Assembly (NCBI GenBank): GCA_948567375.1
Contig: OX419755.1
Span: forward strand, 73,040,944-73,104,943
From: Lunularia cruciata
Lineage: Eukaryota; Streptophyta; Marchantiopsida; Lunulariales; Lunulariaceae
DNA length: 64,000 bases
Direction: 5' to 3'
A program made the position numbers and the translations under genes. Positions 4,137-51,427 of the stretch are shown piece after piece (position 1 is the stretch's first letter; each line of letters begins with the position of its first letter). The notes beneath the pieces were generated by a model. That model was not told where the DNA came from, searched no databases, and was given only the letters and a program-made list of their open reading frames with translations.

Positions 4137-4820
4137 GTAGATGTGGCAACCCGGCAAATATCACTTTTGTGGTAATCCAGTAAGTAAATTTTGTTCTTGT
4201 AGAGATACGATTCAAAATTGGTCAAATACAAAGTCAAATGTCACAAATGTGGTTCTTCGTAATTTCTTCTTTAGTCTCTCGGGTAGAAACCACACCCAGA
4301 AGAGAGTAACAAGCGCTCAACCTTGATAACTTGTCACTAATTCACACACTCATAATCATAACATAGCAAATTCTATCCAAACAAATCTTGATTGTGATGA
4401 TTCAAATTCTCCCAAAGATGACACTTCATTGCAAAATGACTTTGCCTTAGAATTGTGTTCCACCCCTCCACTAAAGGCACAACTTCCTTGATCAAAATTG
4501 CTTCACATCAACACTATGCCGCACTCACAATAGCAGAATACTACCAACACTACAATTCTTCTCAGATTTGTCAAGATCGATTTGCTCCAATTGCACTTCA
4601 CTTAGGATCAAACACACAGTATGAAGATCAAGGCTGCGGAATCCAACATCCAACAAGCACATTGAATTGCACTTCAAAATTCTCCAAGCACTCACAAATA
4701 CATACACAAAATTGACACTCGAAATCAAGCTCAAGCAACAAACACTACTTTACAACACTTCACTTTATCTATCTTCAAAAATTATGAATACTAAACAACA
4801 TAACACTACAAATGCTCCCT

Positions 4821-4829
4821 TTTAAATAG
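4821..4829 (-). promoter_or_regulatory. Putative gag-pol promoter TATA box, copy A
   Basis: The minus strand reads CTATTTAAA, about 680 bp from the LTR 3' end and just downstream of the U3 ORF stop. The same box occurs at the equivalent place in all seven LTR copies of the family. Confidence 0.55.
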
Positions 4830-4944
4830 TAAAGCAATCGATAAGTACTAACAACTATACCGTTCTACAACAACTCTTCCTACCTGCAAATCCAAAATGA
4901 CAATGCACCTCTTCATATCTGCCTCTTCAAATCTCAATCTGTTA

Positions 4945-7308
4945 CTACTCTGATCCAATGTCTACCTCTTCTTTGGCTTCCAAACCCAATGATCTTGCTA
5001 TCACTTCTCCTTCTTCGGGTCTATCTAATTCTACTAAGTCCTTCACTATTTCTATGATTTCTTCACTATGAATTACAATTGAGGTCATGGGTAACCCTTC
5101 TAACTCTTTATCTCCCAACCCACTCTTCTCTAATGTCTCATATGACAACTTTGAAGACACTTGCACTCCTACGTCTGCAACTTTGGACTTCTTATCTTCT
5201 TGCACACTACTCCTATTCTTGCTAACTCTAAATTCACTAAATCTAATCTAAGACTGACATTGTCTCCTACTTCCAACATCTTTCTATCTACTCTCCCCCT
5301 TAAACAAATCAGAAGAGCATTCATATCGACATCCTTTGCTCTTCTCTTCCAAGTTTCTTGCACAAGCAACTTTAATTTGTGTAGCCTTGCTTCTTCCAAT
5401 CTTCCTTCAGTCTCCGTGCTCAACATTGCTTGCAGTCTTCCAACAACTTCTCCTATTGATTTTGATGCATACCCTCAAGATTGCTCTACCTTTAACTCTT
5501 TGTGATACATCTTCAACTTGTCTTCATACTCTGCAATAAGCATCCTCTTCTCCTCCACATACTAAGAACTCTATAACTCAACACTTCTTAGCAAGTCTCT
5601 CAATCGTTCTTCTTCTTGATGTTGGATTGACAACTCTCTCTGCCATGCTTGATCTTTCCTTGTTGCACTCTTCTTCAAGCCTTCTAACTCCTGCTCCATC
5701 ATTGCTGCTATTGCCTTCACATAAATACTTTTGATGCGTGCTTCACTGAATTCTTCCTTCATTTTCTTTAGCAACATCGTCTGCTCCTTCAACACTTTTG
5801 GCTTGACGTTGCATCTCTCTTCCCCTCAACTTGAAACTATCTTGTAACTTCTCGAAGGTCTTCTTCTTCAAGACAATATCCACCCAAAGCTCCTCAACTT
5901 GTTCTTCACTTTGAGCTACATGTTCTTGCAATCACTTTAGTTTGTCTAGCAGAGACTTCACTATCTGCAACTCATTCTTCACCTTCCTTCGGTCTTGTGG
6001 GATTACCTTCTATTGTGCTTTCAACAGCTCCAACAATGGAGTTACAACCTCCATTAAATACTGTACTCTGTCAAGTTTCTCTTTGTCTTTGGCCTTGTCT
6101 TTGTACTTCTTCTCTTCTACAAGCTCCTTCTCCCAAGTCTTGATCTTTGTACTTTCAATGATATCGCATCCAAGCTTCCTTCTTCCTTACCTGCTAAACT
6201 CGGGCAGGTAGGGTCTTCCTTCTTCCACTCAGTCCCCATCTCCTCTATGACCAAGGCTACTCAGGCATGATCACATCCCTCCATACAATCAATCCTTGCA
6301 TGAAATTCTTCATCCTCTTCTGCTTCAGCCGATTGCTGAACTTCTTCTTCTCCATCACTCTCACTTCCAGATTCCCCACTTTGTAATGTGAGCTCCGCTT
6401 CTTCTAAGTCTTCTCCTCTAGACTTTGTCTCCCATTTAGACTCAGTTTCTGAAGTCTCTTCTCTCACCACCTTTTATACCTTGCAGAGTAAGTCTTTGGG
6501 TCTTCCGCTGTTCTTGAGGCAACTACTCCTTCTTTGGGTTTAGTTTGCTTCTTCGTCTTCAGACTTCTCAATTCTTCCCTCTCTTGCTGTCCCGTTTTGA
6601 TGAAGTGATCATCATTGGCTTGCAAGTAAGTCATGTAGTGCTGCTCTTCTTCATCTGCCTCTCATCGTAGGTCAAGATGGAAATGTGACACCATATGTCG
6701 CCTCTCCTCCACTATCAATAAATTTAGCCTGAAATAGAAATGTGCTGCAAACGGTGCAAAATAATGTGGAGGAAAATTAGTTCTACAATTGACAACCATC
6801 TGCCTTGTTTGCTGGTGGAAGCACTTTGCCCAGTTCACCTTCACTCTTGCAAACATCTGGTGGAAGAAGACAACCTGATGCATATTCACATAGGTCATTT
6901 GTTTAGGTTTGAACATAGCCATTATTGCTCCAACAATCTTCATTTAATTGGGTCCCGATAGGACTCCACCTTGTAGCAATTAGTCGTACACAAAGCGAAG
7001 AACAAATTGCAAATTTCAACGGTCTTCTCTACAGCATCACACTTCCAATAGAAGGCGATTCCAATTGCCTCTCTTGCTTCCTTCCCCAATACTAACCTCC
7101 AATCCGACTCAGTCCATCGAGCTGAATTTCCTCTCTTCCCCTCGGAAAAGATAGCTATCTTTGCCATGACTCTTGGGAAATTGAAATTCCAATTCTAGGC
7201 TAAAAACATAATACAAAGTTTATTCAAGACTTCAATCCTTGCTATGACATCTAACCTCCAAATTGTGAAGCTCCTTGCTGCAAGCGCGCTCTTGACCTTC
7301 TTTGCCAT
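4945..7308 (-). pseudogene. U3 ORF, type 2 (copy A), decayed
   Basis: This is the LTR-resident frame read from the conserved Met at 7308 (MAKKV...) to the conserved tail EEVDIGSE at 4945. The span is 2,364 nt, a multiple of three, but internal pieces change frame and stops are frequent. Recognisable parts are WTESDWRLVLGKEA (7080-7125), GYK-like YKVESYRDPIK (6950-6985), NWAKCFHQQTRQMV (about 6800-6840), PPHYFAPFAAHFYFRLNLL (about 6720-6780), an acidic Glu/Ser-rich stretch (6260-6470) and Glu/Lys coiled coil (5170-5930). The function is unknown and no known enzyme motif is seen. Confidence 0.75.
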
Positions 7309-7881
7309 GATTTGATCTCTTGTTCTTTGGCACTGAAAAATTATTCTCTCTCCTTGATATGACACTCTAACCCCTTCTTGACTTCAAAAAATTTCACTCT
7401 CAATTGGCTTCTTGACACAGATTATTGCAAGATGACTACTCAAAGGAACATGATATTTACTTGACATATTTGATTTCCTTGTGCGCAGTCACAATTATAT
7501 ATTACTCTAAAGTGCAGTCATTCTTCAATCAATTTCAAAATCTACTCCTCCTTCTTTTGCGTATTGCTTTCCTATCACTATCAAGGCATGCTTCTCTTGC
7601 CTCTACCATTTCTTGCAATGTACTTTCTTGCCACGTAGAAAGGTTGTTAGATCATCTTTGTATCGGCATTTGCTTCTCGGTCCAAAGACAAGTACTTCTT
7701 TGGGCTTGTCTCTTTGTACCTCCCATCTGAGTACTTTTGCTTTCTGACCCAAAGTTGACTTCTTTGGGTTTACTTCAAAGACACACCTATACATCCTTTC
7801 CTTCGTAATTTGGCTTTCTTACTAACTTCTTCTTCAAAAACTCTAACAAAACAAAAGAAAACAAAAAATGTGGGTACTATA

Positions 7882-11964: not shown

Positions 11965-11965
11965 G

Positions 11966-13127: not shown

Positions 13128-13800
13128 CGTTGTGTGACAACCCGGCAAATATCACTTTTGCGGTAATCGGGTAAGTAAAGTTTGTTCCCGCAGAGATACG
13201 AGTCAGAAATGTCCAAATACAAAGCAAAGTAACAATTTAGTTCTTCTTGGTTGTGTCTTTAATCTCTCAGGTAGAAACCACACCCAAAAGAGAGTGACAA
13301 GCACTGACTTGCAGTCTTGTCACAAATTCACACTCCTTAATCACAACTCCTTCAAACCTTTCCAAACAATCTTGATTGTGATGATTCAGGCTCTCTCCAA
13401 AATGGCACTTCACTGCAAAATGATTTCGCCTTAGAATTGTGTTCCACCCCTCCACTGAAGGCACAACTTCCTCGATCAAAATTGCTTCACATCAACTTTG
13501 CACTGCACTCACAAATGCAGAATACTACCAACACTACAATTCCTCTCAGATCTATCAAGGCATTGCTCCGATTGCACTTCACTCAAGATCAAACACACAG
13601 AATGAAGATCAAGGCTATGGAATCCAACATCCAACAAGCACTCTGATTTGCACTTTGAATTTCTTCACATACTCACAAACATAGATACAAAGTTGATACT
13701 CGGAATCAAGCTCAAGCAACGAGCACTACTTCACATCACTTTGCTTTATCTATTCTCAGAAATAATGAGCACTGAACAACAATTCTCTGCGAATGCCACT

Positions 13801-13809
13801 CTTAAATAA
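13801..13809 (-). promoter_or_regulatory. Putative gag-pol promoter TATA box, copy B
   Basis: The minus strand reads TTATTTAAG, just downstream of the U3 ORF stop and about 670 bp before the LTR end. It is conserved in every copy (4821, 23747, 34527, 37972, 53611, 58002), which places the long ORF inside U3. Confidence 0.6.
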
Positions 13810-13924
13810 TGAACAAATCGTCAGTTCTAACAATTATACCGTTCTACAACAACTTTTCTAACCTGCAGATCCGAAATGACAATGCACCTCTTCATATCTG
13901 CCTCTTCAAATCTCAAAACTGTTA

Positions 13925-16498
13925 CTAATCCGATCTGATGTCTACTTCTTCCTCGGCTTTCAAACCCGAACCCGAAGTAATTTTACTTCCTAATATTCTA
14001 TCCTCGGGTTTCACATCTTCTACTTCTTCTACCAGATCCAGCAATTCTCTTTCCTGATCTGAAATTCCACTAGTGGGCAATCTATCTAACTCCTTATCTC
14101 CCGACCCACTTTTCTCTAATGTTTCTGAGGGCAACTCCAAAGACATTTGGACTCCTATGTTATCTACTTCGGGTTTTGCTTTAACATCTTTCTGAAGTTT
14201 TTCTAGCTCTACTTTCACTAAGTCTAATCTAATGGAAATGTTATCCTCTACCTCTAAAACCTTCCTATCTACATGAGTTCTTAATTTAATTAACAAGGCA
14301 TTCATCTCCGTGTCCTTTGCTTGTCTTTGCCTCGTCTCCTGCACCAACAACTTCAACTTGTGCAGACGCGCTTCTTCAATTCAAACGCTGGCTTCTGCAC
14401 TTAACATCACGTTCACCCTGAGGACTATCTCCTGCAATGGTTCCAATCTTGTCTTCCTTTCTTGTTCTCGATCTGCAAGCCATTCCTCTCGGTACATTGC
14501 TAACTCTTCCTCAAACTCGGCTTTCACCGCTTCCTTCTCTTTCTCCTTCTGTTCAATCTTCTCTTCCTGATTACAAAGTAACTCTTGTAATCTCTCTTCT
14601 TCTCTATATTGCATAGCCAACTCTCATTGCCAGAGTTGCTTCTTCTCCTCCATACTCTCCATCACTCTATTGAGCTCTTGATCCTTCGCTGCTACCCTCG
14701 CCATAGCATGGATAAGCTCTACTCTTGAATCAGCAAACTGCTGCTTCAAGATTTCATATTCGGCTACCTGTCTCTCTCTTGCTATATCACTCTTCCTCGC
14801 AAGATCTTCTCGATAGCTCACTTCTCTCTTAAGGTCTTCAATTACCTGACTTCTCTCTACTGCCTCCGCTTGTAGTACTTCTCTCTCCTCCTCACCTCGG
14901 GTTACACTCCTCTTCAACTCCGAGTTCTCTTCTTCTAATCTTGCTACCACCTGCAATATAGTCTTTACCTCCGGACAAGTTGACTGCATCTCCTTCTTCT
15001 TCTGCTCCAACTTCACCAACAATGGGCACACTACCTCTCGCAAGTACTTCACTCCATCACTGGCAACTTCTTCCTCCCGTGGAGTGGTCTCTCTTTTCTC
15101 CTCGTGTTCTCCTGATACTCACCTTCTTCTCTGGGGTCTTTGTATTGGGATTGATGCCTCACTGCTCGAGCTTTCTTCTACCTCTTCCTTCACTCTACTT
15201 GGCCCCGCCTCACACTTTGCCTTACGTCTCGAGCAAACTCCTTGCTGTACTGCGATCTTCTTGTCCTCTAGCACTGGTACTTCGTCTTCTAGCACTGTAT
15301 TGTCTTTGGCTTCTACCTCGGCTTGCACTTCTTCTTCGTATTCTGCAGCCACTAGCGCCGAGGTCATCTCTCCTCCGTCTTCACTATCACTGCTCGTATC
15401 TCTGCTCTGCAGTGTCAGCTCAGGTTCCTCCTCATGTTCCGAGTCCTTCGTTTTGAGCTCGGCCTCGCCTTCTGAGTCTTGATCTTCTGACTCAATTACC
15501 ACCATTCCTTGCCTCGGGTTACTTCTCTGCATCTTCCGAGGTTTCTTGCTTTCTTCGGCTTCTGCTTGCCAAGTCCTCTTCTTTGTCGGGGTACTCACTA
15601 CGACCTCCACATTTTTCCCTGTCTTTGTGTAGTAGTCGTCCGTGCTCCAGATTTGGAGAATATATTGCTGCTCCTCGACATCAACTTCCTTCCGCACATC
15701 AGGATGGAAGTGCGATACCATCCGATTCTGCTCCGCCAAGTTCACCAAATTGAGCCCGAGGTAGAAGTGTGCTACAAACGGCACAATGTAATGTGGAGGT
15801 GACTTATCCCGTAGATTCCACACCATCTGCCTCGTTCTCCCGTGAAAACACCTCGCCCAATTTATAGGCTCTCCTGCAAACAACTTATGGAAGAACACCG
15901 CTTGGTGTTTCATCACATAAGTTGTTCTCTCCGGCTTCAAAATTGCCATGAGAGCACTCACGATCCCTCTCTTCACTGGATCCTTGTAACTCTCTACCTT
16001 GTACCCATTCTTTGTTCTCTTCGACGAGAAGGCATCTCTCACCTCTTGAGTTTCTTGGGCTATCTCTCCTTTCCCCAAGAATGTAGCTCCCTGCTCCGAG
16101 CCCGCCTCCTTCCCGAGTACGAGTCTCCAGTCCGACTCTGTCCAGCAAGCCGGATTTCCTCTCTTCCCTTCTTCCTTGGGTCCATCGAGACACTTACTCT
16201 CGATGATTTTTGTCATGAATCCTGGAAAACTTACGTTCGAGTTCCATGCCAGAAAGGTGATCCGAAGTTGGCTCAAGACTTTGATCCCCGCTATCACATC
16301 TAATCTCCGAATTGCATGATTTCTCACTACGAATTTGGAGTTCTTCTTCCCTCCTCCCATCTCTTCTGATTTCTCACTTTCTCTCAATTTCACTCTTGCA
16401 ACTTCTTCCTTATGCACTAACACAAGTCCAACTCTATTTCCCTTTCCCCGATCACCTACAAGACGACTCCTCAATGGCAAAGGAAAATTGCTTGACAT
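13925..16498 (-). pseudogene. U3 ORF, type 1 (copy B), best-kept copy
   Basis: This is a single frame of 858 codons with only three in-frame TGA stops (near 15120, 14625 and 14382) and no frameshift. There are two possible starts: Met1 at 16498, or the Met at residue 47 (16360, GAGATGG context), which aligns with the type-2 start. Conserved N-terminal domain, about residues 47-300: RNHAIRRLDVIAGIKVLSQL, WTESDWRLVLGKEAG, GYKVESYKDPVKRG, NWARCFHGRTRQMV, PPHYIVPFVAHFYLGLNL, RMVSHFHPD. Then an acidic Ser/Glu linker (about 300-450), a long Glu/Lys/Leu coiled coil (about 460-730) and the tail EEVDIRSD. I see no zinc knuckle, catalytic triad, signal peptide or membrane span. The function is unknown. 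It is not an envelope protein on this evidence. Confidence 0.85.
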
Positions 16499-16519
16499 TT
16501 TGTGGTTGCAGTTTTGTTT

Positions 16520-16527
16520 TTTTATAG
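16520..16527 (-). promoter_or_regulatory. Putative TATA box of the U3 ORF
   Basis: The minus strand reads CTATAAAA, 160 bp upstream of the conserved internal Met (16360) but only about 25 bp from Met1. The same CTCTATAAAAA box is kept in copy D' (near 40695) and in its 5' remnant (near 42175). Confidence 0.5.
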
Positions 16528-16776
16528 AGTTTCACTTCTTTGTTCTTTGTCACTTTGAGTTTCTACCGAGAAATCACACCTCCGGCATGCACCTGTCACT
16601 GTCAATCAACCTTCGTGCATATGAGCCGCCAGTTTTGAAACAACCCCTTCTTGAATTTCTTGCCCCAACGAAAGGTTGTTAGACTGTCTTCACCTCGGGT
16701 TGAGCTCCCCCCGATCTGAAGACAATTTACTTTGGGTTGTATGCTGACAGGGCATTTTTGAGTACTTCACCTTATG

Positions 16777-16800
16777 ACCCGAAGTCATTTTACTTCGGGT
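16777..16800. promoter_or_regulatory. Palindromic U3 motif
   Basis: ACCCGAAGT, six bases, then ACTTCGGGT form a perfect 9-bp inverted repeat. Related CTTTGGGTT and CCTCGGGTT copies lie within 110 bp. In the other LTR (25732-25755) both arms changed together, to ACCCAAAGT and ACTTTGGGT. A protein-binding site is possible. Confidence 0.45.
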
Positions 16801-16912
16801 TTCATCCCAAAGACTCTTTTCTTTGCTTTCTTTGGCCATACAGGCACAATCCGACTTCTCTATACACTTCTTCTCCTTTAGTCTTAAAAAAACAAAAAAT
16901 GTGGGCACCACA

Positions 16913-16926
16913 TACCCCTTCCCTCA
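16913..16926 (-). other. Polypurine tract of the Tat-like element
   Basis: The minus strand reads GAGGGAAGGGGGTA directly before the 3' LTR. The pol stop codon TGA sits at its first bases, so coding sequence runs right up to the tract. Confidence 0.88.
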
Positions 16927-19900
16927 AATGTGAGCGTCCCCACGAACATAGACCTTGGGTGCTTTAGAAACGTCCAAGTCTATGGTCCAATATCTCCGAA
17001 CTCTCCACCCGTTTACTTGAGTGGCAAAAGGATTACCTTCCAAATCGACAAGTTGCATGGATCCATTTTCATAAAGATGAAGAACTCGATAGGGATCCAT
17101 CCATCTCAAATGCAACTTGCCTGGAAAAAATATTCAGCGATTGTCATATAACAAAACCAAATCCCCTTCTCGTACAATCACAGGCTTGATTCTCTTATCG
17201 TGCCTGACTTTCCTCTGTGCTTGTACTTCTTTTGTGGTTTGCATTGCATCGTCTCTTTTCTCTTCTAACCACATCAGTTGATGAATCCGAAGATCTTGAC
17301 TTTCTTCTTCTGACATTCGTTCTTCGCACAAAACCCGATATGTCAAAACTTCAAATTCAACTGGCAGTATGGGATGCAAGCCATATGTCAAGAAGTATGG
17401 AGTTTGTTTGGTTGTAATCTTCTCTGTCGTTCAATATGCCCACAACGCGGCTGGTAATTTTGTATCCCAGTCATAGGCGTAATTGACAGTCACCTTATTC
17501 AAAATTTTACAAAGTAACCCATTCGCTTTTCCGTTAAGCCATTTGCTTTTGGGTTATAGGGAGTCGTCTTCCGATGTTTAATCTGAAAGTACTTGGTTAA
17601 CGCCTCCATTATAGAGTTCAAAAAATGTGTTCCTCGGTCACTGACCAATTCCAGAGGACACCCATATCGGGAGATGATGTTTCAAAAGAAAAATTCCGCC
17701 ACAGTTTCAGCATCATCTCTGTGAGTTGCTTCCGCTTTGACCATCTTGGTAGCATAGTCAGTGCACACCAAAATGTATTGCTTTCTTGTGACTTGGGTCA
17801 CTGGTTGAATGGGACCCACAAAATCAATCCCCCATTTCTCAAATGGGGCCAAAGGCAAAATTGGTCTCAAAGGCCATTGAGAAGTAGCCATCGGCTTCCT
17901 TGTTCTCTGACAAGCATCATAGCTTCGGATATGAGCACGTACATCTTTGTACATTGTAGGCCACCAATACCCTGCCAAAAGAATTTTCTTTACAGTATTC
18001 TTCAGAGCATAGTGTCCTCCCGATGCTTCGGAGTGTAAAGATTCAATTACTCCTCCTACTCCGTATGACTCCCAGCATCGCCGAAGTACTTCGTCTTTGC
18101 CCATCTTAAATAAAATGCTGTGTTTAAGCTGGTACGGCCCCATTTTCATGAGAAAGACTGCCCGCTGTTCCGGGTCCATCCCCTCAGGACAATGGAGAGT
18201 ATTCAGATAATTATATTTAGCTGCATACCTCGTACTTTGCATTGCTGATAAGTGATACAACTCTTTGTCAGGGAACCGATCGTCAATTTCCCACTCCTGG
18301 TCTTGAGTTTCTAACCTGGACAGGAAGTCCGCATTCAAATGAAAAGCTCCCTTCCTTACTTCTACAGTATACGTGAACTCTTGTAATAACAAGATCCATC
18401 TTGCAATTTGTCCCGATAAATCTGCCTTCTTGACCAAATGTTGCAATGCATAATGGTCAACATAGAAGACAAACTCATACCCCAACAAATAATGACGGAA
18501 TTTCTTGCAGGCATACACCATTCCGAGTGCTTCTCTTTCAGTCGTCAAATAATTCTTTTCAGAAACTGAAAGTTGTCGGCTGGCATAATACATTGGGTAG
18601 TCCTTCTTCTTCTTGTCCTTCTGACTTAAGACAACCCCGATGGCCATGGACAAAGTGTCCACATACACATGAAAAGGGACGTCCCAATTCGGGGCCCTCA
18701 TGATTGGTGCTTCAACCAGTTTCTTCTTCAACACCTGGAAAGCTTCTTCTTGATTTGCTTCCCACAGATAGTCTTCGGATTTCTTCAGAAGCTTTGTAAG
18801 TGGTGCAGCAAGCACTGCATAGTTTGACACAAAGTGTCTGTAATATCCGACATGTCCCAAGAAGGCTCTCAGCTCCCGGATGTTCTTTGGAGATTCCAAA
18901 GCTGCGATTATCTTAACCTTCTCAACATTGACTTCAATACCTTGGCTTGACACCCGATGCCCCAGAAGAATTCCCTCCTTCATTGCGAAGAAGCATTTCT
19001 CCGGGTGTAATGACAAGCCGGCAAAACGACACCTTTCAAACATTTGGCGAAGGTAATCTAAATGTACATCTCTTTGTCCAAACACACAAAAGTCATCAAT
19101 AAAAACTTCCACAAATTTGCACAAGAAATCCTTGAAGATTGAATTCATCATCCGCTGGAAAGTAGCGGGAGCATTACACAACCCAAAGGGCATTTGATTG
19201 TAAGCAAAAGTGCCCCAATTGGTCGTGAATGTAGTTTTATCCTTGTCTTCTTCTTGAATGGATACTTGATTGTACCCTGAAAATCCATCGAGAAAACTAT
19301 AACAAGGATGCCCAGCTACCTAATCTAAAATTGTATCGGTAAAAGGCAAGGGATGATGATCTTTCCTTGTAACTGCGTTCAACTTTCGGAAGTCTTGGCA
19401 CACTCGGATCTTCCCTGTTTTCTTCTTTGGGACAATGACAATGGGGGAGACCCATTCATTGCTTAAGATAGGGAAGATGATTCTGGCCCCTAAGTACTTG
19501 TCGATTTCATCTTTTACCAAAAGCGAGTACTTCGGGTTTAGGCGGTATTGTCGCTGCCGAACCGGAACTGCACCTTCAACCAAATCAATCCGGTGTTCTC
19601 CGAATTCTCGTGGAATACCCGGCATTTGATCAATCGACCAGGCAAATACATCTTGGAACTCTATAAACAGGGCAGTGTATCCTGCCAACTCCTCCGAAGT
19701 AACTGTCTTCAAGATTTTTAAAACTTTTCCTTCAGTTAGTAACACATCTTGATAGTCATCGGGGTTGATGACTCCTTCAACGTGGCTTACTTGGCTTAAT
19801 CTGAGGAGAGCGGCCATCAAACCTCCTTCCTCCAAGTCAGGTTCACCCGAGGCGAGGTCATATGGATCTTCGTCTTCAATATCTACCTCGTAGCATTCCA

Positions 19901-20903
19901 AGTAATTAACTTGGACTTCGTCTTTGGATTCGTCTGAGGACAAAGACAATGAGTCTTTGGATTTGTCCTCCTCTTCCGACGAACTTGTTTCCCCGAGATG
20001 GGGAACCTTTGTCCAACTCACAGTCACTAGCTTCTGATCTTTGGACAAAATGTCCTTGAATCTTAACTGTTGCTAATGCCAATCCACTACAACTTGGGCA
20101 CTGTACAACTAGGGTTTGCCGATCAACAGAGGGTAACCAGTTTTTGTCATTGGCCGCAACACGATATAATTCAACTTGAAGGGTACCCCTCCAATGATCG
20201 TGGTAATGTTTGACAGCATGCCCAAGGGCCGTCTCCTGGTTTGGTCTGCGAACTTCAAAACTCGAGGTGTGGGTTCAAACGTATGATACCCGAGTTGATT
20301 TGCAGTATCTTTGGTCATGACATTCACACCGGACCCGGAGTCAATGGGTATCAATGTGATCATGCACCTTGCAATCTCCGCGTCTACCTCGGGAGATCCC
20401 AAATCTTCTTGTTCAATATGATAAATAGCAGGCAAGTCCTTCTTTGACATCGACCTCACTTTCTTGAGGGCCGAATTAAGTTGTCTCTTGTACAGCTTGT
20501 TATCTTCCCACAATTGCTTGAATGTAACGTTGGCATTTGTGGTGGCCAGATTGGCTACAATATCATATTGGGGAACTCCTCCCAATTTGACCGTCTTTGT
20601 CTTTGGCTTTGGGTCCGAAGTCTCTCCATGTTCCCTCTTGACTTTGGGACGCTTAAAAATGGTGACGGGCTTGCTGATGGCCTTAACCCGAGGTTCCTCG
20701 GGTTGGCCCACCTTGGCTTGGATTAGACCCTTTACTTTGGATTGGATGTCCGCCGGAAAAATTGGAGACTTTGTCTTCGTCTCCTCTTCCAAACTCAGTT
20801 CCCGAGTCCTGAGTAATGCCTCCTTTAATTCTTTCTGCAAGGCTTTAGCTTTGGCTTTTTGAGGATCTTTTCCTCCTTGACCAAAAGAATGGCTTTTGGG
20901 CAT
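16924..20903 (-). pseudogene. pol: protease, RT, RNase H, integrase
   Basis: From 20903 to 17682 one frame is kept, broken only by stops near 20106, 19318 and 17682. Protease: IPIDSGSGVNVM active site, later LLIGKP. RT: VSPIVIVPKKKTGKIRVCQD, FLDGFSGYNQ, MPFGLCNAPATFQRMM, catalytic FIDDFCVF. RNase H: HVYVDTLSMAIGVVLSQ, TEREALGMVYA, HLNADFLSR. Integrase: HSEASGGHYALKNT zinc region, WGIDFVGPIQP, CTDYATKMVKA, GCPLELVSDRGTHF and a PYNPKANGLTEK stretch. Beyond 17682 frames shift; integrase C-terminal pieces are at 17391-17134 and 17115-16924 (LRWMDPYRV, then WTIDLDVSKAP). No chromodomain is seen. Enzymes would copy and integrate the element; this copy is inactive. Confidence 0.9.
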
Positions 20904-21118
20904 AGTCTCTTCGCCTTTCGGGAAGACGACAAGGTCGTACTCAGTTCTTCGGGATCACGCTTCTTCTTGCTAGAGCGTGTCTCAACCTTCAAAATTTCAA
21001 GGTCCGGCCATTCTCCTTTTGAGGCCGGACTCCCTTCTTGAGGTCTTTCTTCCTCAAGAGTAATGCAATTTACATTTGTATCCCCCTTCGGCTGAAGTGA
21101 TGCACGCTCAGCGGGGGT

Positions 21119-22991
21119 CTATACATACTTTACAGGCGGCTTTGGGTTCAGTGGGTGAGGGCATTGGTTGCCCATATGCCCCGATCCTTTATAGTTTCCG
21201 CACAAGGGAACATACCCAATTTGCCTTCTTGGCTCGGGACAGTTTGGGGACCAATGTCCCATCGAGCCACAATTATAACAGGCTCCGGGTGCAACATTCT
21301 GAGGCTGATTTTGGTTGCTCATTGGTGGTCTTTGTGGAGGAGCATTGGGGTTATACTCCTTGGGTCCAAACCTCGGACCTTGATACGATGTGCTTGCTTG
21401 AGGCTGTACCTCCTGAGTTTGGTACACCGCCTCTTTGTCCTCGTCTTGGTTCCATCCCGGAATCCAATCAATTTGCTGCACCGGGAATGCATTACGAGTA
21501 TTGCATTCTGTGTTGGCGTGGCCGGATTTGCCACATGCGGTGCATCACACATTAGATTGTCCAAATGTTGGGGCCTTTCTTCGATCCTTAGCCCCAATCA
21601 TCTGGATCTTGAAATCCGAAAACTCCTTAATGAGGGCATCCAGCTTTGTATCCGCCTTATGTACACTCTTGGCTGGAGGAGTCACTGGTTTCTTGCCTCC
21701 ACGTCTTTTGACTCATCTTGGCTTTGATTCTTCTTTGGATTCCGAAGAAGAGCTTGAAGACGTAGAGGATTTGTTCAAAGACGGGGAGGTGCTGCGCGAA
21801 GCTCTCCTTCTGGGCTTCTTGCCTTTCTTCTCTCGATTTCTCCGGTTACCGGCAGAGTGAGAGTGGGCCACTTCATAATGAGCAACATGTTTGAGTACTT
21901 TGTCTAGGGAAGTTATGTTCCTCTCCCTGGCAAAGATTTGTATCTCTGGTGAAAGGCCCATAGGAACCAAGTAATGGCTTGGGCATCGGAGTAACCCACC
22001 ACCTCCGATTGCTTGGGAACTTGGTTCAGTAGTGCCATGAACCACTTAGAGTAGTCTATCAACTTCTCCTTCTTGCCACGTCCAAATCGTTGAGTGCCGC
22101 GAAGACACTTGTATCGTAGTCAACTTCCCAGAATCGTTCCAGGAAGTTGTTTCTCAAGTCTGCCCAGTCCGCTGGTACAAACCCCTTTTGGGTCACATGG
22201 GTGTACCAGCTCCGAGCTTTCTTGCGGAGCAGACTTGGGAAAATTCTCAGTCGATCCACCAAGTCATGCTCCTTGTTAGCAAAGGAGATGACTTCAAATT
22301 CTTCGATGAATTCATCGGGGTCTTCGTCTTGTTCTGTCCCCTTGTACTTCTGATAGGCGTATCGGGTGACAGGGAGCAAAGTCATTGTTCGATGCACTAG
22401 GATCGGCTGAGGTAATGTGGAACTTGACGGAACGGAAGGATTGGCTGGAATTGATGCCGTGTTGTCAGCCCAGGGATTCCAATTCGTGAAATTCAAGGTA
22501 GGGTCTTCTTTGACAATTTCTGCTATGAGGGTGTTGACTTCAACCCGAGTGGAAGATTCAAGATCAACACCTTTGATGGGTTCTTCAAAATTCCTTCGGG
22601 ACAACTGAGGAATCGTTTGTAGAAGATGTTGACACTCGTCTTTAGTAAGTGTTCGTGCTGTCTTTTCTCAAACAAAGGTCTTCAAGGAAACAAATTCCTT
22701 TACAGCTCTAGGAGAAGTTGGTGTACTGGGCCGCAATGCATATGTTTGCCCACTTGATTCTTTCTTCTTCTTGGAAGAAGAGGGAGATGCAAAGTAGCCT
22801 TGCCAACCGCCTTCACGTTTCTTGTGGTCAAGTTCTCGTAGGGCTTCTTGCACTTTGTGAAGGAGTTGAAACTCCAACACCTCTCGTTTAGTTTTGTCAA
22901 TGATGGATGGGACGTTCAGAGGGTCGTCTTCTTCATGCTGAAATGCTCGTCTTTGAGCTCTCTCTTCCCGTTGTTCTCTCAATGCAGACAT
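21119..22991 (-). pseudogene. gag with three zinc knuckles
   Basis: A real ATG lies at 22991, 64 bp past the primer site. The N-terminal part is Glu/Lys-rich (MSALREQREERAQRR), then a TGA near 22667, then in the same frame a capsid-like part to 22059 (DPDEFIEEFEVISFANKEHD, KARSWYTHVTQKGFVPADW). A frameshift near 22050 precedes a basic/Ser-rich region (21860-21713). Three knuckles follow: CTACGKSGHANTEC (about 21500-21545), CYNCGSMGHWSPNC (about 21245-21290) and a degenerate CGNYKGSGHMGNQC (about 21160-21205). A Lys/Glu-rich linker leads into protease. Confidence 0.85.
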
Positions 22992-23054
22992 TCATATTGC
23001 GGTGATACCCAATTTCCAATTTGGCTTTGTATTCTTCTACTTCCGAGATTTGTA

Positions 23055-23072
23055 TCCCCGGCAGCGGCACCA
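23055..23072 (-). other. Primer binding site, tRNA-Asp-like
   Basis: The plus strand reads TCCCCGGCAGCGGCACCA, seven bases from the 5' LTR. From memory it differs at two positions from the 3' end of plant tRNA-Asp (GUC), the primer of many Ogre/Tat/Athila elements. Confidence 0.75.
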
Positions 23073-23079
23073 AAAATCA

Positions 23080-25866
23080 TGTGACAACCCGGCAAATATC
23101 ACTTTTGCGGTAATCGGGTAAGTAAAGTTTGTTCCTACAGAGATACGAGTCAGAAATGTCCAAATACAAAGCAAAGTAACAATTTAGTTCTTCTTGGTTG
23201 CATCTTTAATCTCTCAGGTAGAAACCACACCCAGAAGAGAGTAACAAGCACTGACTTGTAGTCCTGTCACAAATTCACACTCCTTAATCACAACTCCTTC
23301 AAATCTTTCCAAACAATCTTGATTGTGATGATTCAGGCTCTCCCAAAAATGGTACTTCGCTGCAAAACGACTTTGCCTCAGAATTGTGTTCCACCCCTCC
23401 ACTGAAGGCACAACTTCCTCGATTGAAATTGTTCACATCAACTTCGCATTGCACTCACAAATGCAGAATACTACCAACACTACAATTCCTCTCAGATCTA
23501 TCAAGGCATTGCTCCAATTGCACTTCACTCACAATCAAACACACAGAATGAAGATCAAGGCTGTGGAATCCAACATCCAACAAGCACTCTGATTTGTACT
23601 TCAAATTTCTTCACATACTCACAAACATACACACAAAGTTGATACTCGGAATCAAGCTCAAGCGATGAGCACTGCTTCACAGCACTTCGCTTTATCTATT
23701 CTCAGAAATAATGAGCACTGAACAACAATTCTCTATGAATGCCACTCTTAAATAGTGAACAAATCGTCAATTCTAACAACTATACCATTCTACAACAACT
23801 TTTCTAACCTGCAGATCCAAAATGACAATGCACCTCTTCATATCTGCCTCTTCAAATCTCAAAACTGTTACTAATCCGATCTGATGTCTACTTCTTCCTC
23901 GGCTTTCAAACCCAAACTCGAAGTAATTTTACTTCCTAATATTCTGTCCTTGGTTTTCACATCTTCTACTTCTTCTACCAGATCCAACAATTCTCTTTCC
24001 TAATCTGAAATTCCACTAGTGGGCAATCTATCTAACTCCTTATCTCCCAACCCACTCTTCTCTAATGTTTCTGAGGGCAACTCCAAAGACATTTGGACTC
24101 CTATGTTATCTACTTCGGGTTTTGCTTTAACATCTTTCTGAAGTTTTTCTAGCTCTACTTTCACTAAGTCTAATCTAATGGAAATGTTATCCTCTACCTC
24201 TAAAACCTTCCTATCTACACAAGTTCTTAATTTAATTAACAAGGCATTCATCTCCGTGTCCTTTGCTTGTCTTTGCCTCGTCTCCTGCACCAACAACTTC
24301 AACTCGTGCAGACGCGCTTCTTCAATTCAAACGTTGGCTTCTGTACTTAACATCGCGTTCACCCTGAGGACTATCTCCTGCAATGGTTCCAATCTTGTCT
24401 TCCTTTCTCATTCCCGATCTGCAAGCTATTCCTCTTGGTACATCGCCAACTCTTCCTCAAACTCTGCTTTCACTGCTTCCTTCTCTTTCTCCTTCTGTTC
24501 AATCTTCTCTTCTTGATTACAAAGGAACTCTCGTAATCTCTCTTCTTCTCTTTATCGTGCAGCCAACTCTCATTGCCAGAGTTGCTTCTTCTCCTCCATA
24601 CTCTCCATCACTCTATCGAGCTCTTGATCCTTCACTGCTACCCTCGCCATAGCATGGATAAGCTCTACTCTTGAATCAGCAAACTGCTGCTTCAAGATTT
24701 CATATTCGGCTACCTGTCTCTCTCTTGCTATATCACTCTTCCTCACAAGATCTTCTCGATAGCTCACTTCTCTCTTCAGGTCTTCAATTACCTGACTTCT
24801 CTCTACTACTTCCGCTCGCAGTACTTCTCTCTCCTCCTCACCTCGGGTTACACTCCTCTTCAACTCCAAGTTCTCTTCTTCTAATCTTGCTACCACCTGC
24901 AATATAGTCTATACCTCCGGACAAGTCGACTGCATCTCCTTCTTCTTCTGCTCCAAATGCACCAACAAAGGGCACACTACCTCTTGCAGGTACTCCACTC
25001 CATCACTGGCAACTTTTTCCTCTCGCGGAGTGGTCTCTCTTTTCTCCTCGTGTTCTTCTGATACTCGCCTTCTTCTTTGGAGTCTTTGTATCGGGATTGA
25101 TGCCTCACTGCCCGAGCTTTCTTCTGCCTCTTCCTTCACTCTTCTCGGCCCCGCCTCACACTTCACCTTACGTCTCGAGCAAACTTCTTGCTGTACTATG
25201 ATCTTCTTGTCCTCAAGCACCGGTACTTCGTCTTCCAGTGATGTATTGGCTTTGGCTTCTACCTCGGCTTGCACTTCTTCTCCGTATTCTGCAGCCGCTG
25301 GCGCCGAGGTCATCTCTCCTCCGTCTTCACTATCACTGCTCGTATCTCCGCTCTGTAGTGTCAGCTCAGGTTCCTCCTCATGTTCCTCGTCCTCCGTTTT
25401 GAGCTCGGCCTCGCCTTCTGAGTCTTGATCTTCTGACTCAATTACCACCATTCCTTGCCTCGGGTTACTTCTCTGCATCTTCCGAGGTTTCTTGCTTTCT
25501 TCGGCTTCTGCTTGCCGAGTCCTCTTCTTTGTCGGGGTACTCACTATGACCTCCACGTTTTTCCCTTCTTGCATATGAGCCGCCAATTTTGAAACGGCCC
25601 TTTCTTGAATTTCTCGCCCCGATGAAAGGTTGTTAGACTATCTTCGCCTCGGGTTGAGCTCCCCCCAATCCAAAGACAATTTACTTCGGGTTGTATGCTG
25701 ATAGGGCATTTCTGAGTACTTCACCTTATGACCCAAAGTCATTTTACTTTGGGTTTCATCTTGAAGACTCTTTTCTTTGCTTTCTTTGGCCATATAGGCG
25801 CAATCCGACTTCTCTATACACTTCTTCTCCTTTATTCTGAAAAAAACAAAAAATGTGGGCACCACA
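23080..25866 (-). repeat. 5' LTR (copy C) with 993-bp deletion
   Basis: Same termini as copy B. Relative to B it lacks about 990 bp (B positions roughly 15618-16610), removing the U3-ORF start, its TATA box and the whole N-terminal domain. The size difference between the LTRs is 993 bp. The gag-pol TATA box is at 23747-23755. Confidence 0.92.
23871..25586 (-). pseudogene. U3 ORF, type 1 (copy C), N-terminally deleted
   Basis: The frame is kept from KNVEVIVSTPTKK in the acidic linker through the coiled coil to the tail VDIRSD, with several stops (for example near 24905, 24568 and 24303). At the site where copy B has TGA after QRRR, this copy still has CGA, showing the B stop is a CpG transition after insertion. 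The apparent upstream Met (MAAHMQEGK) is created by the deletion junction. Confidence 0.75.
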
Positions 25867-33854: not shown

Positions 33855-36800
33855 TGTGACAACCCGACAAATATCACTTTTGTGGTAATTGGGTCAGTAG
33901 AGTTTGTTCCCATAGAGATACTATCCAGAATTGGTCAAATACGAATACAAAAGTCACAATGGCAGTTCTTCTTGATGGTTTCTTTAATCTCTCAGGTAGA
34001 AACTATACCCAAAAGAGAGTAAACAAGCTCACAATCTTGACAACTTGTCATGAATACACATACATAATCACAACATAGCAAATTCTGTCCAAACAACTCT
34101 TGATTGTGATGATTCAAATTCTTCTGAAGACGACACTTCACTGTGAAGAACGATTTTGCCTCAGAATTGTGTTCCAGCCCTCCACTAAAGGCACAACTTC
34201 CTCGATTGAAATTGCTTCACATCAACTTCGTGTTGCAATCACCAATGCAGAATACTACCAACACTACAATTCCTCTCAGACCTGTCAAGGCATTGCTCTG
34301 ATGCACTTCACTCAGGATCAAACACACAGAATGAAGATCAAGGCTGCAGATTCCAACATCCACAAACACACTGACTTGCTCTTCAGAATTCTCCACACAT
34401 TCACAACTACAAACACAAAATTGACAATCGGAATTAAGCTTAAGCGACGAGTACTGAGAACATCACTTCACTTTATCTATCTTCAGAAATTTGAATACTG
34501 AATCACATCATATTGCAAATGCTCCACTTAAATACTGAAGCAAACGGCAGACTTGCCTACCTAAACACCACTTCCTAACATCCTTTCCTACCTGCAGATC
34601 CCAAGTGACATCTATCTCTTCATATCTGCCTCTTCCTATCTCAAAATTGGCTTTTATCCCGATCCGATGTCTACCTCATCATTGGCTTCCAAACCCGATG
34701 ATCTTCTTACTATTTCTCCTTCTTCAGGTATATCTACATCTACCAAATCCTTCACTATTTTTGCTACCTCTCCACTAGAAACTACAATTGCACTAAGGAG
34801 TGACTTATCTAACTCATTATCTCCTGACCCACTCTTCTCTAATGTGTCAATCATTAAGTCCGATGACACCTGTACTCCGACTTCTGCGACATCGGGTTTC
34901 TTCTCCACTGTCCCACTATTCCTAATTTTCTCTAATTCCAAATTGACTAAATCTAGTCTAAGACTAACACTATTCTCTACATCTAACATTTTCCTATCTA
35001 CACGCTCCCTCAATCGAATCAACAACATGTTCATATCCACATCTTTGGCTTTTCTCTTCCGCGTCTCCTGCATAGTAACTTTAACTCATGTAGGCGAGCT
35101 TCTTCCAATCTCCCTTCAGCCTCCGTGCTTAAGATTGCTCTCAACTTCCCCGCAACTTCTCCTACTGATTCCGACTCATATCCTCGAGAGCGCTCTACCT
35201 TCAGTTCTTCACGATACATCTTCAGCTTGTCTTCGTACTCCGCAGCAAGCATCTTCTTCTCCTCTGCATACTGTGTACTCTATAACTCAACACTTTTGAC
35301 AAGCTCTCGTAATTGTTCTTCTTCTTCTTGCCTGGCTGCTAACTCCCTCTGCCATGCTTGATCCTTCCCCGCTTCACTCTTCTTCAAGTTGTCCAACTCC
35401 TACTCCATTATGATGTTCATCGCCTTCAAATGAACATTCTCAATGTGCACATCACTCACTTCTTCCTTCATCCTGTTGAGCCACATTGTTTGTTCCTTGA
35501 ATTCTCCGGCTTGCCTTTGCAGTTCCTTTTCCTTTTCTACGCAGCTCCCTTGTAGCATGGTCAGCGTTTTCTTCATCAAGCTTTCCTCCCTTTGAAGTTC
35601 TTCCACTTCCTCGCTTCTTCGGACTTATTGCTCTTGCAACTCCTTCACTTCACTTACTAGGTACTTCACCATCTGCAATTCGTTCATCCCCTTCTTGCGA
35701 TTTTGGGAATTACTCTTTGATGCTCCTTCAACAGTTCCAGCAATGGTGTTACCACCTTCGTCAGATAGGATATCCCGCCAAAGTGCTCTTCCTCATCTTT
35801 GCCATCTTTGTCTAGAGTCTTCTCCTCCGTCATCAGCTCCTTCATCCGAAGTCGCAATCTTCGTATCTTTATCGTGTTAGCACTTTCTTCATCTTGGCCT
35901 CTTGAACTCGGCTCCATGGGATTCGTTGCTTTCTCTTTTGCTCTTGACTTGTTTACTACCATCATCTGACAAGCCTCACTTATTGTTGCCAATTGCTGGA
36001 CCTCTGGCTCCCCATCGCTATTGCTCCCAGACTCCTCACTTTTCAATGTGAGCTCTTCTTCTTCTGATTCCTCTTCTTGCGACTCAGTCTCTTCCCCAGA
36101 CTCCGATCCCGATGATGCCTCTTTTATGATCTTTGCCGTCTTCAACCTCAGCCGCCGAGTCTTCCTTTGCATGGGAGGCGACCTTGCTTCTTCAGGTTTG
36201 CCACGTTTCTTCGTCTTTGGACTGGTAATTTCTTTGACTTTCCACTGTCCCGTCCTCACAAAGTATTTGTTATTTGCTTGAAGATGCAGCATATACTGTC
36301 GCTCCTCCTCGTCTGCTTCCCGTCGCAAATTGGGATGCATGTGAGACACCATACGATGATGCTCTTCTTTGGATAGTAAGTTCAGCCTGAAGTAGAAGTG
36401 GGCTGCGAATGGTGCAAAATAATGTGGTGGCAAGCCTGTTCACCAATTCACCACCATCTGCCTCGTTTGGTGGTGAAAGCACTTTGCCCAATTCAATGGA
36501 GCTCTTGCAAACATCTGATGGAAGAAGACAGCCTGCTGCATGTTCACGTAGGTGGTTCATTCCGGCTTGAACATGGCCATCATTGCCCCCACAATACTTC
36601 TTTGGATCGAATCCCGATAGGACTCCACCTTGTAGCCATTCATGGTTCTTGGAGCAAAGAACAAATTGCAGATTTTTGCTGTCTCCTCTGCAACATCACA
36701 CTTCCAATAGAAGGTGATCCCTATTGGTTCTCTTGCGTCTCTTCCCAATACCAACTTCCAATCCGACTCAGTCCATCGAGCCAGATTGCCTCTCTTCCCT

Positions 36801-37552
36801 TCCACCTTGGGACCCTCCTCACAATTACTGGCAATGATCTCTGCCATCACTCCCGGGAAACTAAAATTCCAGTTCCATGCTAAAAAGGTAATATGAAGTC
36901 TAAACAAGACTTCAATTCTCGCCACTACATCTACCCTTCAAATTGCAAAACCTCTCACCGCCAACGTGTTGGCCACCTTCTTCGCCATGATCTGTTCTCT
37001 CGTTCTACGATGTTGGAAAATAAGACCCTCTCCTGGACAAGACACTCTAACTCCCTTAGGGTTTTGGAAAATCTCACTCTCAATGGGCTTTCGGACACGC
37101 ATTATTGCAAGACAACTACTCAAAGGAATTGGAAATTTACTCAGAGTATTCAACTTTCGCTTGCGCAGTCGCAATTGTATATTGCCTCGAATCACAATCA
37201 TTCTTCAGTTGATTTTGTTTACAAATTTCTCTCTTCTGCGTGCACTCCCGATCACTATCAAGACATGCTTCTTCTACCCCCGCCGTTTCTTGAAATGGAC
37301 TTTCTTGCCACGTATAGAGATTGTTAAATGGTCTTTGTCTTTCTTGTGTCTTCCAACCCAAAGACGGTGATCTTCGGACTTTTTCCGGCATACTCCTCCT
37401 CAAGTACCTCCATCATCGGATCCAATGTCATCTTTTTTGGATTTCCTCTGAAGTTACTTCCGTCCATTCTTTGTCCGCAATTTGACTTTCAGTGCTTACT
37501 TCGTCTCTTAAACACTACTAACCATAGAAAAACAAAAAAATGTGGGTACCAC
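33855..37552 (-). mobile_element. Solo LTR, type 2 (copy D), nested in D' LTR
   Basis: A 3,698-bp solo LTR with exact duplications TGATG at 33850-33854 and 37553-37557. It sits in the R-U5 part of the D' LTR, so one member of the family has inserted in another. Ends are TGTGACAACCCGA and GTGGGTACCACA. The TATA box is at 34527-34535. Confidence 0.93.
34654..36988 (-). pseudogene. U3 ORF, type 2 (copy D)
   Basis: From MAKKVANTLAV (36988) to NDEVDIGSG. An upstream in-frame extension reaches 37201 (MIVIRGNIQLRLRKRK). The N-terminal domain is well kept: WTESDWKLVLGRDA, GYKVESYRDSIQRS, NWAKCFHHQTRQMV, PPHYFAPFAAHFYFRLNLL. A TGA interrupts it at KPE*TTYV, as in copy E. The acidic linker (about 36150-35950) has runs of Glu/Ser. 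The coiled coil (35600-35030) contains at least one frameshift, so the total is not a multiple of three. Confidence 0.78.
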
Positions 37553-38097
37553 ATGATGATTCAGGCTCTCCCAAAAATGGCACTTCACTGCAAAACGACT
37601 TTGCTTTAGAATTGTATTCTACCCCTCCACTGAAGGCACAACTTCCTCGATCAAAATTGCTTCACATCAATTTTGCACTACACTCACAAATGCAAAATAC
37701 CAACACTACAATTCCTCTCAGATCTGTCAAGGCATTGCTTTGATTGTACTTCACTTAGGATCAAACACACAAAATGAAGATCAAGGCTACGGAATCCAAC
37801 ATCCAACAAGCACACTGACTTGCACTTTGAATTTCTCCACACACTCACAAACACAAACACAAAGTTGATACTCAAAATCAAGCTCAAGTGATGAGCACTG
37901 ATTCACAACACTCAACTTTATCTATTTTCAAAATTATGAGCACTGAACAACATCTGACTGCAAATGCCACTCTTAAATAGTGAAGCAATCGACAATTATC
38001 TTCCTAATGTACCTCTTCCTGACAACTCTACAAACTTGCAGATCCGAAATGACAATGCACCTCTTCATATCTACCCATTCAAATCTCAAATTGGTTA

Positions 38098-40671: not shown

Positions 40672-41094
40672 TGCTTCATCGTTAGCCCAATTTTTATAGA
40701 GTCGCGCCTTCTTCGTCTCTCTTCAATTTGAGTTTCTACCAAGAAATCACACCTCTTGCATGCGCCTGTCACTGTCAAGTGTACTTCACACGTATGTTTG
40801 CCGGTTTTTGAACGGTCACTTCTTGAATTTCTCGTCCCAAAGAAAATTTGTTACACTATCTTCGCCTTGGGTTGAGCTCCCCTTGATACAAAGACTTCTT
40901 ACTTTGGGTTGTATGCTGATAGAGCAAGTCCGAGTACTTTGCCTTATGACTCAAAGCCATGTTCCCTTGGGTTTCATCCCGAAGATGCTTTTCTTTGCCT
41001 TCTTTGGCCATACAAGCACAATCCGACTTCTCTATACACTTCTTCTTCTCCATTTCAAAAAAAAAATAAATGTGTGTACCACATACCCCCTCCC

Positions 41095-44395: not shown

Positions 44396-44967
44396 GTAGC
44401 TGTGGTACCCACATTTTTTATTTTTCTTTGTTTATTAGTGTTTAAGAGAAGAAGTAAGCACTGGAAGCCAAATTACGGACAAAGAATGGACAGAAGTAAC
44501 TTTGGAGGACATCTGAAGAAGACGACATCGGATCCAATGATGGAGGTACTCAGAAGAAGGGTATGACGGAAAAAGTCCAAAGAGCACCATCTTCGGGTCA
44601 GAAGGTGCATGAGATACAAAGATTGTTTAACAACCTTGGTATGTGGCAAGAAAGTACACTTCAAGAAACGGTAGAGGCAGAAGAAGCATGTCTTGATAGT
44701 GATTGGACATCAACACGCAGAAGAGAGGAGGTCAAATTTGAAATCGACTGAAGAATGACTGCAATTCAGGGTAATATAAGATTGCGCCTACGCAGGGACA
44801 AGTTGAATATGCCAAGTAAATTTCAAATTCCTTTGAGTAGTTGTCCTGCAATAATGTGTGTTTGGAAGCCCATTGAGAGTGAAATTTTCCAAAATCTTGA
44901 AGGAGTTAGAGTGTCTCGTCCAGGAGAGGGCATCATCTTTCAGCATTGTAGAACGCGAGAGCAGATT

Positions 44968-46002
44968 ATGGCAAAGAAGGTGGCCAATGCACTGGCGGTG
45001 CAAAGTTTTGCAATTCATAGGTTAGATGTTGTAGCTAGAATTGAAGTCTTGACTAGACTTTGTATAACCTTCTTAGCGTGGAACTAGAATTTCAGTTTCC
45101 CGAGAGTGATGGCAGAAATAGTTGTCAGTAATTGTGAGGAGGGTCCCAAGGTGGAAGGGAAGAGAGGAAATCCGGCTCGATGGACTGAGTTGGATTGGAG
45201 GTTAGTATTGGGGAGAGAAGCAAGAGAGCCGATGGGGATCACCTTCTATCGAAAGTGTGATGCTGTAGAAGAAACGGTGGAAATTCACAACTTGTTTTTT
45301 GCTCCGAGAACTACAAATGGCTACAAGGTGGAGTCCTATTGGGACCCGATTAAGAGAAGTATTGTGGGGGCAATGATGGCCATGTTCAAGCCAGAATGAA
45401 CAACATATGTGAACATGCAGCAAGCAATCTTCTTCCACCAAATGTTTGCAGGAGTTCCGGTGAATTGGGCGAAGTGCTTTCACCACCAAACAAGGCAAAT
45501 GGTGATCAATTGGCAAACAAGTTCTCCGCCACATTATTTTGCACCATTTGCAGTGCACTTCTACTTTGGGTTGAACTTGTTGACAGTAGAGTAGCGTCAT
45601 CGCATGGTGTCTCATGTCCATCTTGACTTAAGATGGGAAGCGGACAAAGAAGAGCGACAGTATATGATACACCTACGAGCCAACAATGATTATTTCTTGA
45701 AGACCGGACAGTGGAAGGTCAAAGAAGTCACTAGTCCGAAGACAAAGAAACGCGATAAACCCGAAGAAGCAAAGTCACCTCCCACTCAAAAGAAGACTCA
45801 AAGACTGGTTGTGCAGAATATGAAGATGGTGAGAGAAGTATCATTGGGATCAGAGTCTGAAGAAGAAACCAAGTCGCAAGAGGAGGAATCCAAAGAAGAG
45901 GAGCTCACCTTAAAAAGTGAGGAGTCCGGAAGTGATAGCAAGGGGGAACCTGAAGTTCAGCAATCGGTGGCGGTCAGTGAAGCTTATCAGGCGATGGTGG
46001 AC
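44968..46002 (+). pseudogene. U3 ORF, type 2 (copy E), N-terminal part
   Basis: Starts MAKKVANALAVQSF in an A-at-minus-3, G-at-plus-4 context; an upstream extension in the same frame reaches an ATG at 44755 (MTAIQGNIRLRLRR). A single frame runs for 345 codons to AMVD, where the gypsy element inserted, with stops near 45088, 45397 and 45593. N-terminal domain motifs: WTELDWRLVLGREA, GYKVESYWDPIKRS, NWAKCFHHQTRQMV, PPHYFAPFAVHFYFGLNLL. The acidic linker starts near 45840. A TATAAG is at 44775-44780. Confidence 0.82.
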
Positions 46003-51426: not shown

Positions 51427-51427
51427 G

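Follow-up and report, generated by a model that had tools for sequence, protein, structure and literature searches.

A protein-coding frame under past purifying selection inside the long terminal repeats of a Ty3/gypsy family in the liverwort Lunularia cruciata

As a rule, plant long terminal repeats (LTRs) are regarded as regulatory sequence without coding function. Mouse mammary tumour virus (MMTV) carries a protein gene, sag, in the U3 part of its LTR, in gag-pol sense and at both ends of the provirus, and its product is a membrane superantigen. The additional open reading frames (ORFs) of plant retroelements are placed by the relevant passages of PMC7264820 in the internal region, on either side of gag-pol and in sense or antisense orientation, and the part of its text searched for ORFs within LTRs holds none. 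Open-licence PubMed Central titles and abstract openings, with passages of PMC3087523 included, likewise yielded no plant gene or ORF in an LTR. Here we describe a frame of 857 codons plus stop that is located wholly within the 3' LTR of a Ty3/gypsy element of the liverwort Lunularia cruciata. The window analyzed is a stretch of 64,000 nucleotides (C1:73040944-73104943) of the 566-Mb genome, which comprises 74 contigs, and the LTR copies within it are called F1 to F8. The frame lies on the minus strand (13925..16498), with its ATG at 16498 and a terminal TAG at 13925-13927, and we consider it likely to be a genuine protein-coding accessory gene in the U3 of a Ty3/gypsy LTR, probably a regulatory one.

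With MMTV sag, the Lunularia frame shares a coding sequence in U3, gag-pol sense, presence at both ends and, here, conservation as a protein. It differs in belonging to a plant Ty3/gypsy element rather than to an animal retrovirus, in its 857 codons, in the absence of any membrane segment found, and in its many solo-LTR copies. By position, it may be likened to a U3-resident retroviral gene, and we would not file it with sag. The sense additional ORFs of Athila and Bagy2 (aORF-3S, env-like), as presented in part of PMC7264820, are also downstream of pol, in sense orientation and additional to gag-pol, but they occupy the interval from pol to the 3' LTR, and transmembrane domains are present in some of them, whereas the Lunularia frame lies in the LTR and no such domain was found in it. 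Compared by description, Grande gene23, PvRetro13 ORF2 and Retand ORF4 resemble it as conserved accessory ORFs, but these are antisense and internal, whereas the Lunularia frame is sense and in the LTR. Passages of the same source report an SMC domain in PvRetro13 ORF2 and, for Grande gene23, an own promoter and a nuclear product, which by analogy may count in favor of a regulator. The liverwort Tat elements treated in sections of PMC10508981 are without the additional RNase H, and the Lunularia element, again compared by description, likewise has one RNase H; those sections do not mention an LTR gene for the liverwort elements.

The host element F1/F2 (13133..25866, minus strand) has its 5' LTR at the high coordinates and was delimited by the LTR pair, the TG..CA ends, the CAACG duplication, the primer binding site (PBS), the polypurine tract (PPT) and Pfam matches. 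More specifically, its LTRs are ~95% identical in the main piece, end in TGTGGTGCCC...GTTGTCACA, which is of the TG..CA type, and carry the 5-bp target duplication CAACG at both outer sides. The 3' LTR (F1; 13133..16912, 3,780 bp) holds the full-length frame, has ends that match solo LTRs elsewhere in the genome, and is adjoined by the PPT (16913..16925). In the 5' LTR (F2; 23080..25866), ~1 kb of U3 is deleted, part of the frame included, and it is followed by the PBS TGGTGCCGCTGCCGGGGA (23055..23072), which we take to resemble a tRNA-Asp PBS. Gag, protease, reverse transcriptase (RT), RNase H and integrase, all decayed, occupy 17134..22991, all of these features being on the minus strand. 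In a Pfam scan of the internal pieces, the RT, RNase H, integrase zinc and zinc-knuckle models passed, and the gag and protease matches were weak and below cut-off; the integrase core model was unmatched in the decayed window pieces and matched in the closest Riccia protein. The order RT-RNase H-integrase, along with the TG..CA LTR pair, target-site duplication, PBS and PPT, is that of a Ty3/gypsy element. The best-scoring RT match is a Riccia sorocarpa protein (69% over the whole query), and another record reaches 72% over 68% of the query. A Tat-type additional RNase H was not found in the Pfam scan of the pol pieces and of the closest Riccia protein, which gave a single RNase H. The insertion target of F1/F2 is an integrase-like sequence of another element (11887-13012 and 25867-25907), with a downstream part that looks chromodomain-like by eye.

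The frame is placed inside the LTR because the LTR limits are backed by target duplications of solo LTRs. In the window, the solo LTRs F4 (33855..37553, minus strand, duplication CATCA), F5 (4142..7881, minus strand, TCTAC) and F6 (44401..54288, plus strand, GTAGC) each carry the same frame in decayed form. F4 represents a divergent subfamily and is inserted in F3 (37554..41083, rest 33602-33854, minus strand), a 3' LTR adjoined by PPT and pol, in which the N part of the frame has 75% amino acid identity. Among 42 genome copies (L009-L050), PBS and gag stand beside 4, integrase and PPT beside 6, and neither beside 32. Both LTR ends are present in 28 of the 32, which we regard as solo LTR candidates; a perfect 5-bp duplication flanks 21 of the 28, and at 26 the duplication agrees in at least 4 of its 5 positions, the two others (L033 and L036) having no matching duplication at the expected offset. 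These duplications, at window and genome solo LTRs alike, rule out misplaced LTR ends.

Throughout the genome, the family is present in very many copies. A 23-base LTR-end motif (<=2 mismatches) occurs 9,400 times (control 0), and the LTR-PBS junction, at the same tolerance, 1,403 times (control 0), from which solo LTRs or fragments seem to be the majority, although the junction pattern may miss subfamilies. If all 9,400 LTRs were full length, they would amount to ~35 Mb, or 6% of the genome. A degenerate 21-base ORF motif (NWA[RK]CFH, <=1 mismatch) occurs 7,236 times (control 1). On C1 up to 13.9 Mb, at least 30 of 88 exact LTR ends are preceded on the same strand, at a distance of 2.55-2.85 kb, by the ORF motif, a lower bound from exact matches only; at the same distance on the wrong side or on the opposite strand, the motif was found at 0 of the 88 ends in either control. 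The first three plus-strand LTR-end hits, fetched regardless of the ORF, all contained the frame, one with an internal deletion. In the window, the same frame is present in six LTR copies, one of them with a deletion and all broken, and these six, once aligned, have its terminal stop in common; F7 retains the start only and F8 parts of the end only. The window subfamilies are ~40-50% identical in the N part of the frame. The copy number and the subfamilies rule out a one-off host gene or nested element.

To assess constraint on the frame, pairwise ratios of nonsynonymous to synonymous divergence (dN/dS) were calculated by the Nei-Gojobori method. The ratio for F1-F3 is 0.16 over the whole frame and 0.06 in codons 59-295, and for F4-F6 it is 0.20, whereas the F1-F2 pair, separated only since insertion, gives 0.45. 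For comparison, the F1-F3 integrase gives 0.26 over 164 codons, and the stretch beyond those codons, with a frameshift inside, 0.31-0.48 in three frames. Furthermore, 40 genome copies (L009-L048), which are the best matches to the N part of F1 and not a random sample, were aligned with F1, and two-allele sites were sorted by the copy number of the rarer allele. The count of nonsynonymous to synonymous sites (N/S) falls from 266/107 (2.49) for alleles in 1 copy to 94/61 (1.54) in 2-3 copies, 93/92 (1.01) in 4-8 copies and 76/126 (0.60) in at least 9 copies. Singletons compared with the class of at least 9 copies give a Fisher p = 5e-15 in the ORF frame and 0.41 and 0.21 in the shifted frames; linked sites make the p-value too small, and the contrast between frames is independent of it. 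A four-bin test in the +1 frame gave p = 0.048, yet N/S does not fall there. The fall is present in codons 59-295, 296-459 and 460-710, and codons 711-857 are uneven (4.2, 1.27, 0.71 and 1.19 from private to shared alleles). Copies thus decay more or less neutrally after insertion, and the source lineages were under protein-level selection.

A long frame arising by chance in purine-rich LTR sequence with few stops was weighed against these results. The sense strand is indeed purine-rich here and antisense frames are long too, but the codon-phase signal is specific to the ORF frame and missing in the two shifted frames, which contradicts a chance open frame and leaves it a practically negligible probability. 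We regard the anatomy of the LTR-resident frame and its past purifying selection as close to certain. Beside this, synonymous divergence between F1 and F3 is 0.86 in the LTR ORF and 0.32 in the integrase, and the R-U5 Kimura two-parameter distance is 0.13 (13379-17877 against 37554-42049). The history of the U3 module seems deeper than that of its neighbours, as if U3 may have been swapped between subfamilies.

An initial annotation of this DNA had described an ~850-residue frame in the LTR, in gag-pol sense and upstream of a TATTTAAG box, and the 857 codons at 16498-13925 bear this out. The position and the coding signal of that long frame stand, but the F1 copy is not uninterrupted; in-frame TGAs break it at codons 460, 625 and 706 (15119-15121, 14624-14626 and 14381-14383). 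An LTR size of ~3.75 kb agrees with the genome copies, 37 of 42 of which retain both ends and are about 3.75-3.79 kb long. The frame was said to occur twice per element and in solo LTRs, and it was recovered from the 3' LTR, from the 5' LTR with its ~1-kb deletion, and from the solo LTRs F4-F6. That it might instead be a host gene or second element inserted once is answered by its many genome copies in several subfamilies, and its reading as an LTR-resident gene gains support from the LTR limits, the frame-specific selection and the genome copy number.

Candidate expression signals flank the frame on both sides. Upstream, a TATAAA box (16521..16526, minus strand) lies 28 nt before the ORF ATG in F1. 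TATA[AT]A occurs at -60 to -15 of the ATG in 39 of the 42 genome copies (shuffles: mean 2.45, maximum 9), a count that reflects conservation among related copies and not independent origin, and a TATA-like sequence is visible by eye in F4-F6. Downstream of the ORF, the TATTTAAG box (13801..13808, minus strand) is the likely promoter of the genomic RNA. It is found in F1-F4 and F6, with TATTTAAA in F5 and F8, and GATAAA is conserved after either version. Beyond it follows the presumed R-U5 (13133..13800, minus strand), non-coding and the most conserved stretch across the LTR subfamilies. We infer from the TATTTAAG box that the ORF is located in U3 rather than in R. If it were in R, the genomic RNA would start at the TATA before the ORF, which would then be a directly translated first cistron; the conserved TATA box 28 nt before the F1 ATG would suit this arrangement, and a long R is compatible with LTR replication. 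However, a conserved TATTTAAG box between the ORF and the best conserved LTR block is the expected U3/R layout, and translation of gag would suffer from a long ORF ahead of it, so that we assign the location in R a low probability.

The predicted protein begins its conserved part with an N-terminal domain at codons 59-295 (15614..16324), which carries the motifs WTESDWRLVLG, NWARCFH, PPHY and AHFY and is the best conserved part of the frame, with 98 of 229 ungapped codons identical across five window LTRs. It continues with a linker at codons 296-459 (15122..15613), where a basic cluster (KKR...KKPR) at codon 306 precedes an acidic stretch, and with a predicted heptad coiled coil at codons 461-624 (14627..15118), where the period-3.5 hydrophobicity power is 100 against a shuffle mean of 25.6 and was reached by 0 of 500 shuffles. 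The C-terminal region (13928..14380) ends in a conserved VDI[GR]S tail; all these segments are on the minus strand. No membrane helix was predicted in six scanned pieces of F1 and F3, where the maximum 19-residue hydropathy is 1.41. Pfam gave no match above the curated cut-off for 12 distinct stop-free frame pieces and 14 rows of the frame alignment (A1), and the PDB, searched by sequence and by profile, returned a best E of 0.12, which is not credible. A database of 5.8 billion proteins, including ones named Riccia and Calypogeia, held no relative of the frame: a 459-residue query gave none at E 0.01 among 7,999 scored candidates, a set in which acidic words may have dominated, and a query of residues 55-300 gave none at E 10 with 425 candidates scored. 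GTDB genome contigs and IMG/VR also contained no relative. A suspected likeness of the N-terminal domain to the Pfam domain named 'putative plant transposon protein' was not borne out and was dropped.

These searches bear on two possible origins of the gene. In the first, the LTR grew to enclose an Athila-type ORF (env-like, aORF-3S) that had stood in sense orientation after pol and before the 3' LTR, once the PPT that primes the plus strand had moved upstream of it. Athila elements have one RNase H, and the single RNase H in the Pfam scans fits them. Position and sense agree as well, the frame coming first after integrase and PPT, and passages of PMC7264820 name the interval from pol to the 3' LTR, with either orientation, as the most frequent place of additional ORFs in plants. 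Yet there is no transmembrane segment, no sequence relative was found, and no element seen in this analysis has the gene outside the LTR, all of which makes such an origin unlikely. In the second, a host gene was captured long ago and has been kept in the LTR since. Gene capture by retroelements does occur, as stated in part of PMC7264820, and the multi-domain architecture could be cellular, but the protein, Pfam and PDB searches gave no relative or match, and the gene is present in every subfamily seen in the window; little probability remains for this course of events.

Several observations weigh against a functional LTR gene or against parts of that reading. Each of the 41 aligned copies contains at least one stop (median 4), and with 0 of 41 frames free of stops or frameshifts, any present-day protein production is putative. 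Codons 1-58 appear little constrained: dN/dS there is 0.50-0.93 in comparisons of F1 or F3 with the remaining copies (0.19-0.28 within F4-F6), and N/S does not fall (1.5, 6.0, 4.5 and 1.67 from private to shared alleles). All 42 aligned genome copies (42 of 42) retain the first ATG, partly by choice, the copies having been picked as near-full matches to the N part of F1, and it is lost in F4; the second (codon 47) persists in 41 of the 42 and is also aligned in the other subfamily. The TATA box stands so near the first ATG that RNA made from it might start only there or further downstream. As for the protein, F1 but not F3 showed the bipartite basic cluster pattern, and AlphaFold, run on 14 window rows, gave a mostly helical model with a mean pLDDT of 45, too poor for fold assignment. 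The protein layout of the initial annotation stands in its N-terminal domain, acidic linker and VDI[GR]S tail, and its long coiled coil holds at codons 461-624 but not at 626-705, where heptad periodicity was not detected. Its statement that there is no known enzyme or envelope feature agrees with the absence of a credible Pfam or PDB match and of a predicted membrane helix. Of the checks it suggested, the Pfam profile search of the N-terminal domain returned nothing above cut-off, and structure prediction yielded a helical model of low confidence. Finally, the TGAs at codons 625 and 706 are also present in F2, the 5' LTR partner of F1. As the two LTRs were identical at insertion, these common stops indicate that the element probably moved with a broken gene, unless later conversion spread them. 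Such a transposition fits a product supplied in trans, but it could also mean that the gene is dispensable.

Taken as an accessory gene of U3, the frame would make each LTR a self-contained cassette. The TATA box before the ORF would start an mRNA of ~2.7 kb, to be ended by a poly(A) site in R, and the downstream TATTTAAG box would start the genomic RNA. We consider the chances of such an own promoter to be evenly balanced. Reverse transcription would put the gene into both LTRs in each round, so that solo LTRs would retain it. The product may be an oligomeric, probably nuclear regulator of the element, for example one that works on LTRs in trans by activating transcription or by countering silencing. 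We offer this nuclear function tentatively, and rate it lower because the basic cluster occurs in F1 but not in F3. That each LTR, solo ones included, is a stand-alone gene with promoter, ORF and terminator for a trans-acting family regulator we hold to be doubtful. If true, solo LTRs were active gene copies and not dead remains, elements with a broken gene such as F1/F2 were served in trans, and the dispersed solo LTRs would have acted as helper loci, sustaining expression of the family in the face of silencing, driving its bursts and helping to enlarge the genome.

An 857-codon gene, once selected, in an LTR family with ~9,400 end motifs changes what a solo LTR can be. Its product represents an additional protein family, with no relative found, and the arrangement suggests a testable route by which a retrotransposon might provide a trans-acting factor out of the remnants it leaves behind. 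Passages of PMC9985172 report that the Lunularia cruciata genome is ~2x that of the other liverworts studied, mostly from Ty3/Gypsy bursts, and an LTR gene bears on this enlargement.

Further repeats were observed in the window. A degraded, older-looking relative of the N-terminal domain lies at 8740-9094 on the minus strand, where two pieces match F4 (E = 6e-8). Its own relatives in the genome are numerous, with 7,529 first-look candidates, of which 150 were scored and have 35-67% identity excluding the self-match; from the many copies of this kind, the gene family looks old in the Lunularia genome. F6 is interrupted at about 46003-52136 by another LTR element (46003-52136), whose LTRs (46003-46695 and 51449-52136) are 97% identical with pol-like frames between them, and a third LTR-like copy is located at 54756-55444. 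At the end of F3, a copia-like pol fragment was recognized by eye (33239-33643, plus strand). A repeat family of ~3 kb occupies 1-3065, 26858-29894 and 11527-11951, its two long copies being 83% identical, and an inverted repeat of 527 bp with 95.6% identity is formed by 42687-43213 and 43529-44054.
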